From Hawksworthiomyces lignivorus (Eukaryota > Ascomycota > Sordariomycetes > Ophiostomatales > Ophiostomataceae), in the NCBI GenBank assembly GCA_002917075.1, contig NTMA01000022.1:372001-436000 (forward strand): DNA of 64,000 bases, given 5' to 3'. The stretch's first letter is position 1; the number at the start of each line of letters is the position of its first letter. Below, piece after piece: positions 34,840-43,142 of this stretch. The notes below the pieces were generated by a model that made no database searches, was not told the DNA's origin, and was given only the letters and a program-made list of their open reading frames with translations. Position numbers and translations under genes: made by a program.

Positions 34840-35930
34840 CTTTACTGTGTCTAGATTTGTTATCTTACTCGAATGTGCGGCACAGCTTTACACAACTATT
34901 GTAGTCACAAGAGAGCCAGACACAAATCGAGCAGCACACATCGCCATCAGCAGCCCGGCGCGAAATGAGATGGCTGGGTTCGGGGTGGCAATCAAGACAT
35001 GCAAGCACGTTAGGGATGATCCTACGGTCGACACCCTCGCCATCACCACAGGCCCAAGGATAGAACAAAAACCTCATGTGGGCGAACTAGCTGCAATGGC
35101 AGACGCCCTAGAACAACTACCGTGGCGCAAATACCATAATGTCACGCTTCTAACGAGGAACAAAGCAGCGGTGCTCACGCTTCGGAACACACGACAACAA
35201 TCTAGTCGAGAATACATCCGCAGGATATACGAAGCCATCAAAAAGATCAAAAGAAAATGTAACAAGATCAGGATAGTATGGCTACCTTCGGGCGAACAAG
35301 ACGAACTCTGGACTGCTGCCAAAGCGAAAGCCAAGGAAGCCACACAAAAGGGCAAAGAGCCTCAGACACCAATCCCTAGAGTAAGATCAACAACACTCAG
35401 CCTAGCACAGGCTAAACTAGGAAGTACCAGCAGCCTGCCAGACAAAATCGGAAGACTCTCGAAGAGAGTAGACACACCACTGCCAGGCAAACACATTTGA
35501 TAGTTCTACGACCAAGGCACATGAAGAAAAGCCACAGTGCTCATTCAGCTGGGGACAGGAATCGCGCGACTGAACTCGTACTTAGTCCGTAAAAAAGCGG
35601 CGCCGTCAGACCTATGTGTTTGCGGAGCTGCAACTGAGACGGTCGAGCACTTTCTCTTCCGATGCAAAAGATGGACAGAACACCGTAGGGGGATGATACG
35701 ATGCACAGATACCCACAGAGGCAACATTTCATTCTACCTTGGAGGGAAAATTGTCAAGCCAGTTTGAGTAGAGCCATTTATTAGGAGAGGCCAAAGGAGA
35801 TATCCTAGAGGGAGGCAGGGCGAAGAGCCCTCTCTATAGTGCTATATACAGTGTATTACCACGGTATTCAAGTGATAGGCATGAGGTGTCAACCTACAGG
35901 CATGGTATTATATAAGCACTGCTCAACAAA
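34840..35930 (+). mobile_element. 5'-truncated Tad-type LINE, RNase H end
   Basis: A forward frame 34847-35500 continues, after stops, at 35537-35767. Features: E-L-A-A-M-A-D-A-L, then V-T-L-L-T-R-N-K-A-A-V-L-T-L, R-Q-Q-S-S-R-E-Y-I-R-R-I-Y-E-A, I-V-W-L-P-S-G, P-R-V-R-S-T-T, D-T-P-L-P-G-K-H; then Q-L-G-T-G-I-A-R-L-N-S-Y-L and C-V-C-G-A-A-T-E-T-V-E-H-F-L-F-R-C. This is the RNase H-like and C-terminal zinc-knuckle end of fungal non-LTR retrotransposon ORF2. Stops after G-K-H-I and before R-K-A-T-V interrupt it. Reverse transcriptase and ORF1 are absent, as expected for 5'-truncated LINE insertions. Its 5' edge coincides with loss of the chitinase N-terminus. The 3' limit is uncertain. Confidence 0.8.
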
Positions 35931-36873: not shown

Positions 36874-39651
36874 TTAATCCCATATTTTACTGAATAATAC
36901 CTGTATAAAGTTCGTTCCACTTCGTTGTCTCCGAAGCGTATTCGCGAGGTTACTCCTACTCCGAAGCGTGTCAGGGTGCTCTGCCCCTAGCACTTTGGTG
37001 CGCAGCTCGAGCGTCTGCCGATGCATCGCCTCGGCCTGTTCGTATTTGCCCTGGCTGGAGAGTACGGCCGCAAGATTGCTCCTACTCATGAGCGTGTCAG
37101 GGTGCTCTGCCCCTAGCACTTTGGTGCGCAGCTCGAGCGTCTGTCGATCCATCGCCTCGGCCTGTTTGTATTTGCCCTGGTTGGAGAGTGTGGTCGCAAG
37201 ATTGTTCCTACTCATGAGCGTGTCAGGGTGCTCTGCCCCTAGCACTTTGGTGCGCAACTCGAGCGTTTGTCGATACATCGTCTCGGCTTGCTCGTATTTT
37301 TCTTGGCTATAGAGTGCGTTCGCAAGATTGTTTCTACTCCAAAGCGTGTCAGGGTGTTCTGCCCTTAACACTTTGGTACGTAGCTCGAGTGTCTGCCGAT
37401 ACATCGCCTCGGCCTGCTCGTATTTGTCTTGGCCATAGAGTGTGTTCGCAAGATTGTTTCTACTCACGAGTGTGTTAGGGTGCTCTGTCCCTAACACTTT
37501 GGTACGTAGCTCGAGCGTCTGTCGATCCATCGCCTCGGCCTGTTCGTATTTGTCCTGGCTATAGAGTGCGGTCGCAAGATTGCTTCTACTCCAAAGCGTG
37601 TCAGGGTGTTCTGCCCCTAGCACTTTGGTGTATAACTCGAGCGTCTGCCGATACATCGCCTCGGCCTGCTCGTATTTGCCCTGGTTGGAGAGTGAGGCCG
37701 CAAGATTGCTCCTACTCACGAGCGTGTCAGGGTGCTTTGCCCCTAACACTTTGGTACGCAGCTCGAGCGTCTGTCGATCCATCGCCTCGGCCTGCTCGTA
37801 TTTGCCCTGGCCATAGAGTGCGGCCGCAAGATTGTTTCTACTCATGAGCGTGTCAGGGTGCTCTGCCTCTAACACTTTGGTACGTAGCTCGAGCGTCTGC
37901 CGATGCATCGCCTCGGCCTGCTCGTATTTGCCCTGGTTGGAGAGTGCGGCCGCAAGATTGCTTCTACTCCAAAGCGTGTCAGGGTGCTCTGCCCCTAACA
38001 CTTTGGTACGCAGCTCGAGCGTCTGCCGATCCATCGCCTCGGCCTGCTCGTATTTGCCCTGGCTGTAGAGTGCGGCCGCAAGGCTGCTCCTACTCCCGAG
38101 CGTGTCAGGGTGCTCTGCCCCTAGCACTTTAGTGCGCAGCTCGAGCGTCTGTCGATGCATCGCCTCGGCCTGCTCGTACTTCCCAAGTAAAGAGTAACTC
38201 GTTGCCACATTAGTGAGAAGGTTCCACTTAGCTCTATCGTCTGTCGAATCATCCCGGAATCCCAACGCTGTTATAGCATGCGGAAGATACCTCATCCAGA
38301 CACCCCTATTCTTATACGTCGGGAAAGGGAACATCTCATCGAGTCGTTGGATCGCACGAGTGACACATGTATTTAGCTCGCCTTTCACTACTAGCCAGTT
38401 CCGCATCGCTAGCCGCACAAGTCTGTGCATCTGGTATGACTCGCCCCCATTCTTAATAATGAGCCCATACGCCTCCAGCACCGCAATGGCCTCGTACGCC
38501 TCCAGCTCGTTCTTGCCTGGCGGTAGGAGACGCTTTGGGATGTCCTTCTCTGCGAGAAATGACATAAATTGGAGATGCTGCGCAGCGAGTGGGCTATCCC
38601 GGGAGATGTGCTCGAAAGAGATGAGCCATGTAGTAGCAACTGGATTTTTGCTGCCCTCATAACGACCATGATCATTAAAGTCCTTGCTGAGCAGTTCGAT
38701 CAAGTGCTTGTCACTCGACTGGCAGTAGTCCAGATATTGTGTCGCCGTCATCCCCGCCTGGCCCATGTAAGCAGATGCTTGTTTGATGGCGAGCGGCAGG
38801 TTGGCTAGGAAGTCTAGCAAATTTGTCGTACTCTCCGGGCTACTCTTCTGGGCCGTGGCTAAGTTTCTCTGCAACATGTCGGCTGCTTCAGATCTGCTCA
38901 TCTCTGCCACATGGACGACATTTGCTTGCCGAATGCTAAGCTCTCGGGTAACCGCGTGGTTCCGCGTCGTGAAAAGGATGGAGCCTTTGTGGCTAAACGG
39001 AAGACACTTGTATAACGGTATAGTCCCGCCAGTGAGTAGGTCCAAATCGTCAGCGTTGTCGATAACCAACAGCCAGCAGCCTATGCTCTCACTGAGTGCT
39101 GCCTTAACAAGCAACTTTATATCCGCTTTATCGTCGTCGATCCCCGGAACCTTAAGCTGCCGGCCGATCTCGCGGTAGGCGTTCTCAAAAGTGGCCGCAT
39201 CTACGGCGGGAACCCAGAAGACGGAGCAGTCGGAGTATTTGTCACGCAACTGGAAGGCCGCCTCTAGCGCGATCTGCGTCTTCCCGACCCCGCCGAGGCC
39301 CACGATTGCTGTCCGCTGGCAGTCATGACGGTCTGCTTGGGGGGGGATACATTCCAGAAGCTGGTTTAGGATCTGCTGACGGCCGACGAAGTCCCTATTG
39401 CGGCCGAATGGGACGATGTAACGGGGCTCGTTCTTGTCGGTACGAGAATCGACTTTCGCATCAGTCGGGCGAGGTGGTTCTTGGCTGCCGTAGTAATGGT
39501 AATGGGTAGTGTTGGTAGTATTTCCGACTTGGAGACGTGCCTGCCCCTCGGCCCGTATGATTCCGGCGATATTGGTCGAACTAGGGGCAGCGGCGTCTTG
39601 ACCGTCCGCCGTCAAAGCTGAAATATCCATGAAACTATGCGGTTTCGGCAT
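36874..39651 (-). CDS. NLR: amyloid-like motif + NB-ARC + ten TPR repeats (925 aa)
   Basis: A fungal NLR-type receptor, expected to sense a ligand through its repeats, oligomerise through NB-ARC and signal through its N-terminus. Residues about 27-47 read TNIAGIIRAEGQARLQVGN, which fits the HET-s-related amyloid motif (I-R-x-E-x-x-A-R-x-Q-x-G-N). NB-ARC: P-loop GLGGVGKT (118-125), Walker B WLLVIDNADD, G-S-I-L-F-T-T-R, LPLAIKQASAYM, and YQMHRLVRLAMRNWL as the MHD-like element. Residues 490-909 are ten 42-residue TPRs of the G-K-Y-E-Q-A-E-A-M-x-R-Q-T-L-E-L type, nearly identical, followed by a 16-residue tail. Single exon, no break. About 800 bp away, divergently transcribed, lies a HET-S-type remnant, the usual partner of such an NLR. 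Concerted evolution of the repeats is expected. Confidence 0.88.
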   Translation of the reverse strand: MPKPHSFMDISALTADGQDAAAPSSTNIAGIIRAEGQARLQVGNTTNTTHYHYYGSQEPPRPTDAKVDSRTDKNEPRYIVPFGRNRDFVGRQQILNQLLECIPPQADRHDCQRTAIVGLGGVGKTQIALEAAFQLRDKYSDCSVFWVPAVDAATFENAYREIGRQLKVPGIDDDKADIKLLVKAALSESIGCWLLVIDNADDLDLLTGGTIPLYKCLPFSHKGSILFTTRNHAVTRELSIRQANVVHVAEMSRSEAADMLQRNLATAQKSSPESTTNLLDFLANLPLAIKQASAYMGQAGMTATQYLDYCQSSDKHLIELLSKDFNDHGRYEGSKNPVATTWLISFEHISRDSPLAAQHLQFMSFLAEKDIPKRLLPPGKNELEAYEAIAVLEAYGLIIKNGGESYQMHRLVRLAMRNWLVVKGELNTCVTRAIQRLDEMFPFPTYKNRGVWMRYLPHAITALGFRDDSTDDRAKWNLLTNVATSYSLLGKYEQAEAMHRQTLELRTKVLGAEHPDTLGSRSSLAAALYSQGKYEQAEAMDRQTLELRTKVLGAEHPDTLWSRSNLAAALSNQGKYEQAEAMHRQTLELRTKVLEAEHPDTLMSRNNLAAALYGQGKYEQAEAMDRQTLELRTKVLGAKHPDTLVSRSNLAASLSNQGKYEQAEAMYRQTLELYTKVLGAEHPDTLWSRSNLATALYSQDKYEQAEAMDRQTLELRTKVLGTEHPNTLVSRNNLANTLYGQDKYEQAEAMYRQTLELRTKVLRAEHPDTLWSRNNLANALYSQEKYEQAETMYRQTLELRTKVLGAEHPDTLMSRNNLATTLSNQGKYKQAEAMDRQTLELRTKVLGAEHPDTLMSRSNLAAVLSSQGKYEQAEAMHRQTLELRTKVLGAEHPDTLRSRSNLANTLRRQRSGTNFIQVLFSKIWD
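36925..38184 (-). repeat. ten 126-bp tandem repeats (TPR array)
   Basis: The 126-bp unit is repeated ten times with high identity. Variation concentrates at unit residue 10 (H, D or Y), residue 30 (G, W, M, V or R) and residues 37-41, while the rest is almost constant. Antisense frames through this array are artefacts of its composition. Confidence 0.9.
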
Positions 39652-40445
39652 TGCCAGTGTCTGCGTCTAGCGACGACAGCTACGTGGATTCCGAGAACGT
39701 CGATGACTCTCCAGTTGCAACCCAGATGTATGGTCTAGGTTTGGCAATCGGAGTTGGCTGTCGAAATAGATGATTTGCCCAAGTCAGCGACGGAGATACC
39801 CGCTTCCAGATGTTTCGCCTCGCGATGTTGTCCCCCTCAGACGACGATACTATTTTGCGCAAGTCCAGGGTATCTTAGTCGATGCTTCCAAATACAAAGC
39901 AACAGCAGCACTGTTACATAGGTACGGGTAGTTCCGTAGGAGATAGCAGAGCAGAACAAGCATTAGATAAAGAAAAAACAAAAAGATACGGCCTAAATCC
40001 TTGAAAATTGTGAAGGGAGATGGTCATATATGTGACAGGTGCCTACCCTTTCTCTTTGGCCAGACAGGGGAGGCCTGGGAGGGGCTGATACAACCTTTGT
40101 GGCTCTAGCCAATCAACGACTATGCTCCCGCACAGCCCATTCCCAAACCTTTTGTAGAGGAAGCAATACGGGAACAGTGACAGGGCGCCTAGAAAGAGAA
40201 TAAGGAAGGGCTGGTGCTGCGACCTTGCGTGTTGGCCAATCAGGCTCGTTGCAAATCGATATTGGCGCCTACTCCTTCATCGTGTCCTTTGTCCTCTGTG
40301 ACAACAAAGAGTTAACTGTCAATCCCTGCACCTCGCCGTCTTTTCTAGCATCGAGCAGCATCACCACCATATACTCTCCGACGTAATAAACTCTACGTTC
40401 CTCTTACCTGCTCTTGGCACAGTACTAGCTAGCCCCAGATCACTT
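39652..40445. promoter_or_regulatory. shared divergent promoter region of NLR and HET-S-like genes
   Basis: About 800 bp between two start codons facing away from each other. No coding potential was seen. Divergent sharing of a promoter fits co-regulation of receptor and effector; no specific binding site was identified. Confidence 0.4.
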
Positions 40446-40743
40446 ATGGCAGAGCTTTTCGGCACCGTCGCGGCCGCGCTGAGCGTCGCGGCGCGCTCTT
40501 CAACAACTGTGTCGACTGCTTCGAGTACATCCAGCTGGGCCGCCATTTCGGGGCCGACTACGAGAGATGCCAGCTAAGGCTAGCCATTGCGAACACACGG
40601 CTAGGACGATGGGGTGAGGCGGTCAACGTTCGGGACCAGACGGTGAACTCGGTAGAGATGGTGACGGCGAGCGGCAAGTCGGGCGTCCAGATTGGAAACA
40701 CATATGGAGGCAGTGGCCTTTGGGACGGTGGACAGCCACGGTA
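40446..40743 (+). pseudogene. HET-S-type (HeLo + amyloid motif) remnant, frameshifted and internally deleted
   Basis: HET-S proteins carry a HeLo cell-death domain and a C-terminal amyloid region with two related repeats. Here ATG at 40446 begins MAELFGTVAAALSVAA, the characteristic start of HeLo domains. An apparent extra CG dinucleotide near 40490 shifts frame. The other frame then reads L-F-N-N-C-V-D-C-F-E-Y-I-Q-L-G-R, Y-E-R-C-Q-L-R-L and R-W-G-E-A-V, all strongly HET-S-like, and passes straight into D-Q-T-x-N-S-V-E and V-Q-I-G-N-x-Y-G-G...L-W-D, the second amyloid repeat, ending at TAG 40741-40743. Most of the HeLo domain and the first repeat, roughly 200 residues in HET-S, are missing, so the gene cannot make the normal product. 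The identification rests on family similarity at both ends and on the neighbouring NLR. Confidence 0.8.
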
Positions 40744-41629
40744 GATATACCAATGCAGAGGCTGAGCCTAATGGTGCGCTGTGGGTTAGCGGGGCGTATA
40801 GTGGTTGCAGGCCTATTCGCTAGTGTGAGGGAATTTGAGTGCCAAGGGCTTAAATTATTAGCAGGACTTCATTTCTGAATAATACAGTTTTTGCTGCAAC
40901 CTGTCTTCCTTTTTTTTTTATTGCTATCATTTTCTTTTCCGATTGACTAGCTTTTTTATTTACTAAGCCCTCACACTACCATAGCACAGCTTTCTCCTTT
41001 TTGCAAATAAGTAGTCTGCGCCGCCTAAATTCAACACACAAGGCGCCTTTCCCCGTGTTTTACCCCTTAGTCGCTGGGGACAGTAATCCAGTAAATCAGT
41101 ATTTACTCCTGCCTTGGCGAAAGCAGCTGTTGCATTTCAGCAGCCTTTCTATAGACCAATGCGATTGGACATCTGCTCTCGATGTTTGCTTCGATAATCA
41201 TTCAAAAAAAATTCGACAAAGCCACGGGGTCTCAGCCCAGATCCCCAATGTCACGACGAGTGCGCTGTGTGGACCAGAGAAGATATTGTCAAGATATATG
41301 AGAAGAACAATGGCTTTGACTTGGCTATAGCTTGGCTTAAGCAAGAAATGATAAGTGGTGGTATCTGCTGGGGCTCGGGCGTGTCGCTGGAGCATATCTA
41401 AGACAAGTTGATAGATTTATTGAATCGGTGTGGAATGAGCGAAGATGTTCGCATTTTGAGTACGGTATTTAGTCCGACATTTTCCCCCCGTTTTTAACAA
41501 TACGAGCTCTCCATATCTGGGACATGCGTCTAGTCTGCAAATCAACAAACCGAAATAGAGATATCTTGGAAGCATGGCAGTCTTCCAGGCACAAAGCAGG
41601 TACCATTGACACATCCATATTCGTCCTTA
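40744..41629. other. intergenic, nothing recognised
   Basis: AT-rich spacer; short frames only. Confidence 0.4.
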
Positions 41630-42473
41630 TCAAACTGCAATGCGGATAATAATTTCCACAAGCCTTGCCGATTCCGTTTCTTTCAGAAATGGACTATGCC
41701 CACTCTCCAGCGTCACGACATCGGCGCCAGCCGCTTTGGCCATTGCCACTTGCCCCTCGTACGGAATGGCGGCGTCTTGTTGGCAAACAATGTACGTCTT
41801 CGGTGCCCTAATCTCGGCCGCAGGGTGAGTGCACTTCTGCTGGAAGCTAGCCCGACTCTGCTTGACCGTACCGGCCATGGCCCTCTCTGCCGCGTCGCTA
41901 GCGAGGTCTTGATAGAAGGCATCCTTAGCACTTTCGTTGAGCACCATGCAGCCGTTCTAGTCTCGTGTAAGTTTGGCAACTTTGGCTGCACGAGCTCGCG
42001 CAATCTAAGAGGGGGGAAGGGGAGCCTACCATAGGATCCCACCAACCCGGACGAGTGGAGTCGTCCTTCACGCCGATCATATCGAACAGGGATATATCTG
42101 GAGCAGGAGGTGCAAAAGCAGCAATATACATGACGGCCTTCACACCACCGCGCGCCCCTCTAGCGCTACGCTCGACAACGGTTTCACCAGCAACGCTGTC
42201 AGTTCCTGGTATGCCGCCATAGCTGTGCGCCACCACCACGATTTCCTGCCCTGCTTCCAACATGGGGTGCATCGCGGCCCGGACTGCCTTGACGTCGTCG
42301 TCGAGCGTGCGCTCGGAAGTGGACTGAACCAAGTCTGCAGTGGGGAGTACTGGGGTCGCCACGCTGTATCCTGCCTCGCGCAAGGGCTCGACGACGAGGG
42401 TGTAGTGATGAGGCCGGTGCCAGGCACCGTGGACAAAAACGATAGCCGGCTTCTCCATAACCGATGGGCTCAT
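41630..42473 (-). CDS. alpha/beta-hydrolase
   Basis: Two exons (42473-42030 and 41955-41630) with a 74-bp intron 41956-42029 in phase 0 that removes an otherwise out-of-family tail. The start MSPSVMEKPAIVFVHGAW is preferred over an upstream ATG at 42638 because the hydrolase fold begins at once with V-F-V-H-G-A-W (oxyanion region). The nucleophile is the Ser of A-H-S-Y-G-G, the acid probably the Asp of C-Q-Q-D-A-A-I-P, and the His that of L-E-S-G-H-S-P-F, so the triad is complete. Length (about 255 residues) fits the AB_hydrolase_6 / esterase-like group. No signal peptide, hence cytosolic. The substrate is unknown; such enzymes often act on small esters. It appears intact. Confidence 0.8.
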
Positions 42474-43142
42474 GTTGTGGAATAAAGTCTTTGGAATCAG
42501 GCACTGGATTAATGGGAAGATGTCGGAGACTCGAGGAGGCTCCATCGGCTGACACTCGGAACATAGGACAGGAGCACGGCTCGGGGTACTTATACAGACG
42601 TCTCTTGAGGGCCTGTCACGAAATGGCCACTTGGACACGCCGTATAAACCGCCTATTTAGGCTTAGCTCAACTACTCTCTCCGTCTTACCAGAGCATGGA
42701 GCGGCCGAAAGAACGTACCCTGGACAAACGCATACTACGTGGCCAGCGATAGCCAAACCGGTTGATTATACTCAAATATACAGGATACTCTTTCGTCTTA
42801 ACCGAGTTGAGCGTCTTGGGCCGTACGAACCGTATGGGCAGTAAGCTGGAATGCCAAGCCGACTGACTGGTTTGGTCAGTAGCAGGATCGCTTTGAAAGC
42901 ACTGCTAGGATGCACGGCTGGGATGCATGGAGGATTGGTCAGACACAAGCAGACCCCTCCTGCACAATTCGGCATGCGTTCTCATCTGTGGCCCCGAGGT
43001 TTCGCTAGCTAAACTGCTTGTCCAACGCAAGCCCCTAACTTTCCACTGTCTGTGCGTTTTAGATGAGTGAGCTACACTGCGAGTCTTCATAGAGGTCCAC
43101 GAAGTTGCCTACTGCGTTATAAGCATACCACACCCAGTCTAC

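Follow-up and report, generated by a model that had tools for sequence, protein, structure and literature searches.

The 64,000-nucleotide stretch of the Hawksworthiomyces lignivorus genome analyzed here (the window) corresponds to positions 372001-436000 of contig C107, in an assembly of 43.7 Mb and 191 contigs. It contains a NOD-like receptor (NLR) gene with NB-ARC and tetratricopeptide repeat (TPR) domains and, divergently oriented to it, the remains of an effector gene of the HET-S type. The NLR gene was identified from the open reading frame (ORF) list and Pfam as a single open frame of 925 amino acids on the minus strand (36874-39651). It is separated from the plus-strand effector relic by an intergenic stretch of 794 bp (39652-40445, as given by the ORF bounds). 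The divergent pairing of an NLR with a HET-S-type effector, which a preliminary description of this locus had recognized, was thus confirmed.

The NB-ARC domain of the window NLR (residues 109-303; 38743-39327, minus strand) matched PF00931 with 39.6 bits against a Pfam cut-off of 23.5, and the TPR_12 family was detected in ten stretches. Pfam and repeat comparison delimited ten TPR units of 42 residues each at 36910-38169 (minus strand). The protein also contains the nucleotide-binding sequences GLGGVGKT, LVIDNADD, LPLAI and YQMHR, which we take to be the P-loop, Walker B, LPLAI and MHR signatures, respectively. TPR units 1-9 showed a mean identity of 83% at the protein level and 88% at the DNA level, with more than two residue types at just 7 of the 42 positions. 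High internal conservation and concerted evolution are typical of fungal NLR repeats (PMC5485727). No effector domain was found within the receptor among the matches listed, which concerned 25 of 37 Pfam families.

Near its N-terminus, the window NLR carries a HET-s-type amyloid motif, r0 (residues 25-46; 39514-39579, minus strand), in line with what the preliminary description had claimed. PF11558 assigned this segment 16.4 bits (E 0.0089), under the cut-off of 32.2, and whole-genome searches with both PF11558 and PF17108 overlooked it. A repeat profile was compiled from the r1 and r2 repeats of an intact effector encoded on contig C117 of the same genome and of the best 120 of 154 database effectors, where 232 of 242 units were kept and 10 dropped for length. 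In the external test profile this genome's two units were removed, and 230 r1/r2 units from 116 database effectors were used. With the latter profile, the window motif scored 19.4 bits (E 3.6e-6) among 187 NLRs, of which 3 were from this genome and 184 from outside, the outside set being drawn from the best 120 of 1938 and the best 120 of 527 sequences. The three own NLRs were retrieved at E values of 3.6e-6, 4.8e-6 and 7.3e-4, while none of the 184 outside NLRs had the motif by this profile (best E 0.79). The profile check proposed in the preliminary description therefore failed with PF11558 and succeeded with the external profile. Moreover, tblastn of the C117 effector matched the motif of the window NLR with an E value of 3.7e-4.

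We also applied the external profile to the six-frame translation of approximately 1.5 kb upstream of 58 NB-ARC loci (51 plus 7 further ones). Three positives were obtained, with 22.1, 19.4 (window) and 13.2 bits, followed by a next score of 8.8 bits; the best score in 20 shuffles of the six-frame segments was 9.0 bits. A degenerate motif pattern occurred at seven places in the whole genome, namely the three NLR motifs, r2 of the C117 effector, r2 of the relic, and two others that have stops nearby, compared to three places for a reversed-pattern control. In the PF17108 genome search, five places were listed, none above the cut-off. Four of them were known motifs and the fifth, located at the NACHT part of another NLR (contig C46, 15.5 bits, E 1.4), was taken as a chance match. 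The motif in the window NLR is thus real, and it is rare in this genome.

The effector relic consists of three parts, all on the plus strand. The start codon and residues 1-16 are found in a first frame (40446-40493, 87.5% tblastn identity to the C117 effector), and HeLo residues 17-63 in a second frame (40496-40636, 76.6% tblastn identity, 72.1 bits with PF14479). These are followed at 40637-40744 by the second repeat, r2 (40637-40726), a short tail and a stop (37.9 bits with PF11558 and 42.3 bits with an external r2 profile). For the frame spanning 40436-40741, the HeLo match covered positions 11-59 of 205 (72.1 bits; cut-off 23.2) and that to PF11558 covered positions 35-65 of 65 (37.9 bits; cut-off 32.2). 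The reading frame opened by the gene's ATG comes to a stop after 43 residues. Compared to the C117 homologue, 180 codons (residues 64-243) have been deleted in frame, with the junction at 40628-40636, in addition to one frame break. Hence, instead of a complete HeLo domain and two repeats, only HeLo positions 11-59 and r2 were found beside the window NLR, interrupted by the frame break, which agrees with the earlier account of a broken effector that has lost most of its HeLo domain and its first repeat. Since the C117 homologue encodes VRD at both edges of the deletion (residues 61-63 and 244-246), a short-homology deletion would explain the gap. In the surviving stretch, 24 alignment columns reach a conservation of 90% or more among effectors (114 of 121 alignment rows kept); the relic differs at only 1 of them, compared to 4 in the intact C117 protein. 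Given this good conservation, the break looks recent.

The preliminary description had regarded the receptor as left without its executor. This was not the case, as an intact effector with a HeLo domain, r1 and r2 is encoded on contig C117, which rules out a receptor lacking any executor. The genome-wide search for a matching effector that had been suggested yielded this single intact candidate: PF14479 (HeLo) gave eight matches, and a full HeLo domain together with both PF11558 repeats was present in the C117 protein only. This protein comprises 277 amino acids, with 171.6 bits for HeLo and 62.6 bits for the PF11558 repeats, and matched the solved HET-s chains 2wvn (HeLo; E 2.6e-72) and 2kj3 (prion domain; E 6.3e-14). 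Its ten best matches in the database show identities of 50-56%, and its nearest named relatives presumably belong to the Sordariomycetes. Its residue 33 is a histidine, as in 76 of the 121 aligned proteins; a point mutation at this HeLo position is described as the cause of the inactivation of HET-s (PMC3321046). The C117 locus, which is on a contig other than that of the window, has the same divergent layout, with an 873-residue NB-ARC/TPR NLR that carries the motif and an ORF gap of 546 bp. 

A third NLR with the motif, an NB-ARC/TPR protein of 1152 residues, is encoded on contig C137. The whole-genome PF11558 search gave three matches, corresponding to the C117 effector, the relic and the N-terminus of the C137 NLR, the last below the cut-off. 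No HeLo trace was found beside the C137 NLR, either in the 9 kb around it (approximately 3.5 kb upstream and 2 kb downstream) or in the genome-wide HeLo list. A lost effector at this place was also discarded by tblastn with the C117 effector, whose matches there were limited to the NLR motif and a single hit attributable to chance (E 2.2). Thus, three NLRs were found in a single genome together with one intact effector that shares their motif, plus one relic.

The motif of the window NLR was then scored against 225 full-length r1/r2 units (of 233). Its best unit was r2 of the C117 effector (rank 1 of 225, score 73; next 58), while r2 of the neighboring relic was at rank 62 with a score of 40. 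The receptor motif is therefore most similar to r2 of the unlinked effector and not to that of its neighbor. When columns were resampled, C117 r2 surpassed the relic r2 in all 10,000 draws. Recent gene conversion was dismissed as the cause of this protein likeness on the basis of the DNA identity between the window motif and C117 r2, which is only 37 of 66 bases. It has been described that r0 motifs resemble the repeats of the cognate effector, r2 in the canonical family (PMC4518210). By this rule, the best partner of the window NLR in the genome would be the unlinked C117 protein.

On the NB-ARC core, the window, C117 and C137 NLRs formed an exclusive clade, with a support of 1.0 in a tree of 131 sequences and 0.962 in a tree of 194 sequences. 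The motif was therefore probably gained once and the receptors multiplied afterwards. The window NLR was the first branch of the three in the 131-sequence tree, and its core was the nearest to outside NLRs, with a distance of 0.489 compared to 0.698 and 0.734 for the other two. Most outside NLRs had been found with the window NLR as the query, which favors it in these distances; however, the same order was obtained with 64 outside NLRs found by the C137 query alone (0.829, 1.038 and 1.075). The dN/dS of the NB-ARC core was approximately 0.16-0.28 in the three NLR pairs, and the core of the window NLR appears to be free of any sign of decay. A segmental duplication was rejected, as blastn of window positions 25001-55000 against 9.5 kb around the C117 pair matched the NLR and the effector only. 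The 794-bp and 546-bp intergenic stretches of the two pairs showed no significant similarity (best common word of 10 bp, E 0.32), and nothing significant emerged as a promoter element common to both pairs.

Taken together, these results suggest that the three sister receptors probably signal in trans to the single intact pore-forming effector of the HET-S type on C117. In such a pathway, a cue would bind the TPR array of the window NLR and its NB-ARC domains would oligomerize, whereupon the N-terminal motifs would fold together into a β-solenoid. This would template r1-r2 of the C117 protein and release its HeLo domain, with cell death as the presumed outcome. That each receptor would activate the common effector is suggested by the similarity of the motifs. 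The gene beside the window NLR would formerly have been a HET-S-type effector that broke through the 180-codon in-frame deletion and the frame break, and this copy was most likely lost recently as dispensable. It would have been free to break because an unlinked effector was able to serve, and the receptor would have been retained because an executor remains. Of the three options offered in the preliminary description, the use of another effector is therefore the best supported, given that the window motif fits C117 r2 best of the 225 units, whereas nothing was found for a new role of the receptor.

Several observations weigh against signaling in trans to the C117 effector. In the HeLo part, the relic is less similar to the C117 protein (76.6%) than to 27 of the 114 aligned effectors. 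A weak tree of 77 columns places it next to a protein of Sporothrix bragantina (0.825), with C117 joining after that (0.871). From this distance it follows that the two effectors of this genome separated long ago, so that the relic may have formed a long-separate pair with the window NLR, a pair which would then be old. The motif comparison is based on 22 columns, and C117 r1 was only at rank 200 of 225 (score 25) for the window motif. Resampling preferred C117 r2 over the relic r2 moderately for the C117 NLR (0.88) and weakly for the C137 NLR (0.62), and the best unit of the latter was an outside one (71, compared to 69 for C117 r2). With a profile made of r2 units only, the order of the three NLRs held less well, with 22.6 bits, 12.2 bits for the window NLR (E 0.017) and 7.7 bits for the C117 NLR (E 5.4), the last at noise level; the C117 NLR motif is the weakest of the three, and it is its position and neighborhood that speak for it. 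For NACHT-type NLRs, coverage came from Pfam and the pattern search only; these are less sensitive and can miss a divergent motif, as Pfam missed that of the window NLR itself. Such NLRs are part of a large repertoire: in lists that overlap, the 43.7-Mb genome gave 51 matches to NB-ARC, 89 to NACHT and 150 to NPHP3_N. In addition, three such pathways of Podospora are described as running in parallel without cross-seeding, though with different motifs (PMC7889193).

Finally, a basic N-terminal extension of approximately 38 residues, present in both sister NLRs, is missing from the window NLR. The DNA upstream of its start (39652-39723, minus strand; up to C107:411723) aligns to this extension by a match to the C117 NLR, but contains one in-frame TAG. 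The completeness of the receptor claimed in the preliminary description thus holds for the single open frame of 925 amino acids and not for the extension.

This missing extension would also fit a newly orphaned receptor, an NLR that served its neighbor only and has yet to decay after the recent break of that neighbor. This option of the preliminary description stays as the main rival, although we consider it rather unlikely. The relic looks young, with two lesions only and 23 of the 24 conserved columns kept compared to 20 of 24 in the C117 protein, and it may have been the long-standing partner of the window NLR; moreover, in Podospora het-s strains, where the executor function is lost, nwd2, which encodes the receptor, is present as a pseudogene (PMC4344463). 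However, the window motif resembles r2 of the unlinked C117 effector more than r2 of its neighbor, which is unexpected for a private pair, and the NB-ARC core of the window NLR is not evolving faster. The few lesions and the high conservation of the remainder are equally what a polymorphic locus would present, where the broken effector is one allele that is intact in other strains, as in het-s/het-S, and the sequenced strain carries the null allele. In Podospora, het-s/nwd2 is known as a polymorphic locus (PMC4344463), but we regard this explanation as improbable here, because it leaves the motif match to C117 unexplained.

A sequencing or assembly fault, in which an intact effector was collapsed or miscalled, is very improbable. 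The frame break lies in a GC-rich stretch and could be a base-calling error; yet, by comparison with the C117 homologue, the 180-codon gap has the kind of edges that a short-homology deletion would leave, and the contig continues for approximately 69 kb further. Besides, the nearest copy found is 74% identical at the DNA level over the HeLo part (105 of 141 bases) and is therefore too distant for an assembly collapse. It is scarcely conceivable that the relic still acts, with a short r2-only product interfering with or nucleating the amyloid signal. Its r2 is in excellent condition, scoring 42.3 bits against the external r2 profile, and has an in-frame ATG at 40658, but upstream of that ATG the HeLo frame is without a start of its own, and the frame that begins at the gene's own ATG terminates after 43 residues.

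Signaling in trans to one executor can be set against known systems. As in NWD2/HET-S of Podospora anserina, the window NLR has one N-terminal motif of the PF11558 type and a divergent gene combining HeLo with a C-terminal repeat; the ORF gap of that pair is approximately 0.6 kb (PMC4344463), compared to 794 bp for the window pair and 546 bp for that of C117. In contrast to NWD2, the window receptor is of the NB-ARC/TPR type and not NACHT/WD, without the combination of NACHT and WD40. The state of the locus, a broken effector next to an open NLR, is the reverse of that in het-s strains, where it is the NLR that is a pseudogene. The FNT1/HELLF and PNT1/HELLP systems of P. anserina similarly couple an amyloid-motif NLR to a cell-death effector, and PNT1 has a PP-NB-ARC-TPR architecture (PMC7889193, PMC12881547), but they employ other motif families (HRAM5 and PP) with one receptor per effector. 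HeLo genes beside NB-ARC/TPR NLRs, with a different motif, are also described in Arthroderma (PMC3321046), and in Sordariales the combination of NB-ARC with an amyloid N-terminus is frequent (87 NLRs, 56%; PMC12258605).

Pairs involving amyloid-motif NLRs are already on record, and one survey found the partners adjacent in 98 out of 155 cases (PMC4518210). The activation of one effector by different NLRs has been proposed (PMC5485727), and non-adjacent partners together with an excess of NLRs have been suspected (PMC9815663). The present genome resembles such non-adjacent amyloid signaling in having more NLRs than effectors per motif (PMC9815663, PMC5485727). Those reports, however, give either an aggregate co-occurrence, with a mean of 5.7:1 for motif NLR12, which is linked to enzymatic effectors, or a proposal, while here a concrete 3:1 case is found, which has the canonical motif and still shows remains of a neighboring effector that was lost. 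Among the open-licence papers listed, judged by their abstract openings and supplements aside, none announces a HeLo effector that is broken next to a retained NLR while an intact effector is encoded at another locus. Systems of this kind are known, and many-to-one wiring has been put forward before; the present set provides a concrete, natural and testable case.

Regarding the neighboring effectors, one looks freshly broken (window) and one was not found (C137, 9 kb). Tentatively, the genome might have been caught shifting from private pairs to a converging network, in which a single amyloid-gated executor serves three NLRs that differ in their TPR arrays, while neighbor effectors are shed. 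If true, the sensor/helper networks known from plant NLRs would have a counterpart in fungi, where the amyloid motif of approximately 22 residues would act as the common plug. The locus makes directly testable whether amyloid-signaled fungal NLRs form closed pairs or branched networks, and it indicates that neighborhood alone is a poor guide to the effector used by an NLR.

The remaining HeLo loci of the genome were also considered as partners. The HeLo proteins of contigs C106 and C112 were rejected, being without a HET-s-type motif behind the HeLo domain, as were the C145 sequence, which is in pieces, and the C110 protein, which has another C-terminal motif and two in-frame stops. Over these four loci and C37, the profile gave nothing above noise (best 5.5 bits, E 0.67). 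The C110 gene (443500-444460, minus strand) is HET-S-like, with 156.7 bits for HeLo across the stops and a different double C-terminal motif; it represents another decaying effector or an intron-bearing gene. No NLR-like open frame was seen around it in 7 kb, and a pattern for its motif type occurred at 15 places, compared to 12 in the control. On C106, an NB-ARC/TPR NLR (L022:5159-7645) has the same orientation as the HeLo protein next to it (L022:2116-2832), which is without a recognized C-terminal amyloid motif, and on C145 the HeLo-type sequence is split into pieces by stops (L024:3500-4500, minus strand).

Within the window, a weak reverse-transcriptase-like match was observed near the 3' end of the NLR gene (34970-35497, plus strand; RVT_3, 18.5 bits, below the cut-off), which is perhaps a retroelement remnant. 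On the other side of the pair, at 41630-42545 (minus strand), an α/β-hydrolase of the Abhydrolase_6 family extends across two overlapping open frames and is either broken or intron-bearing.

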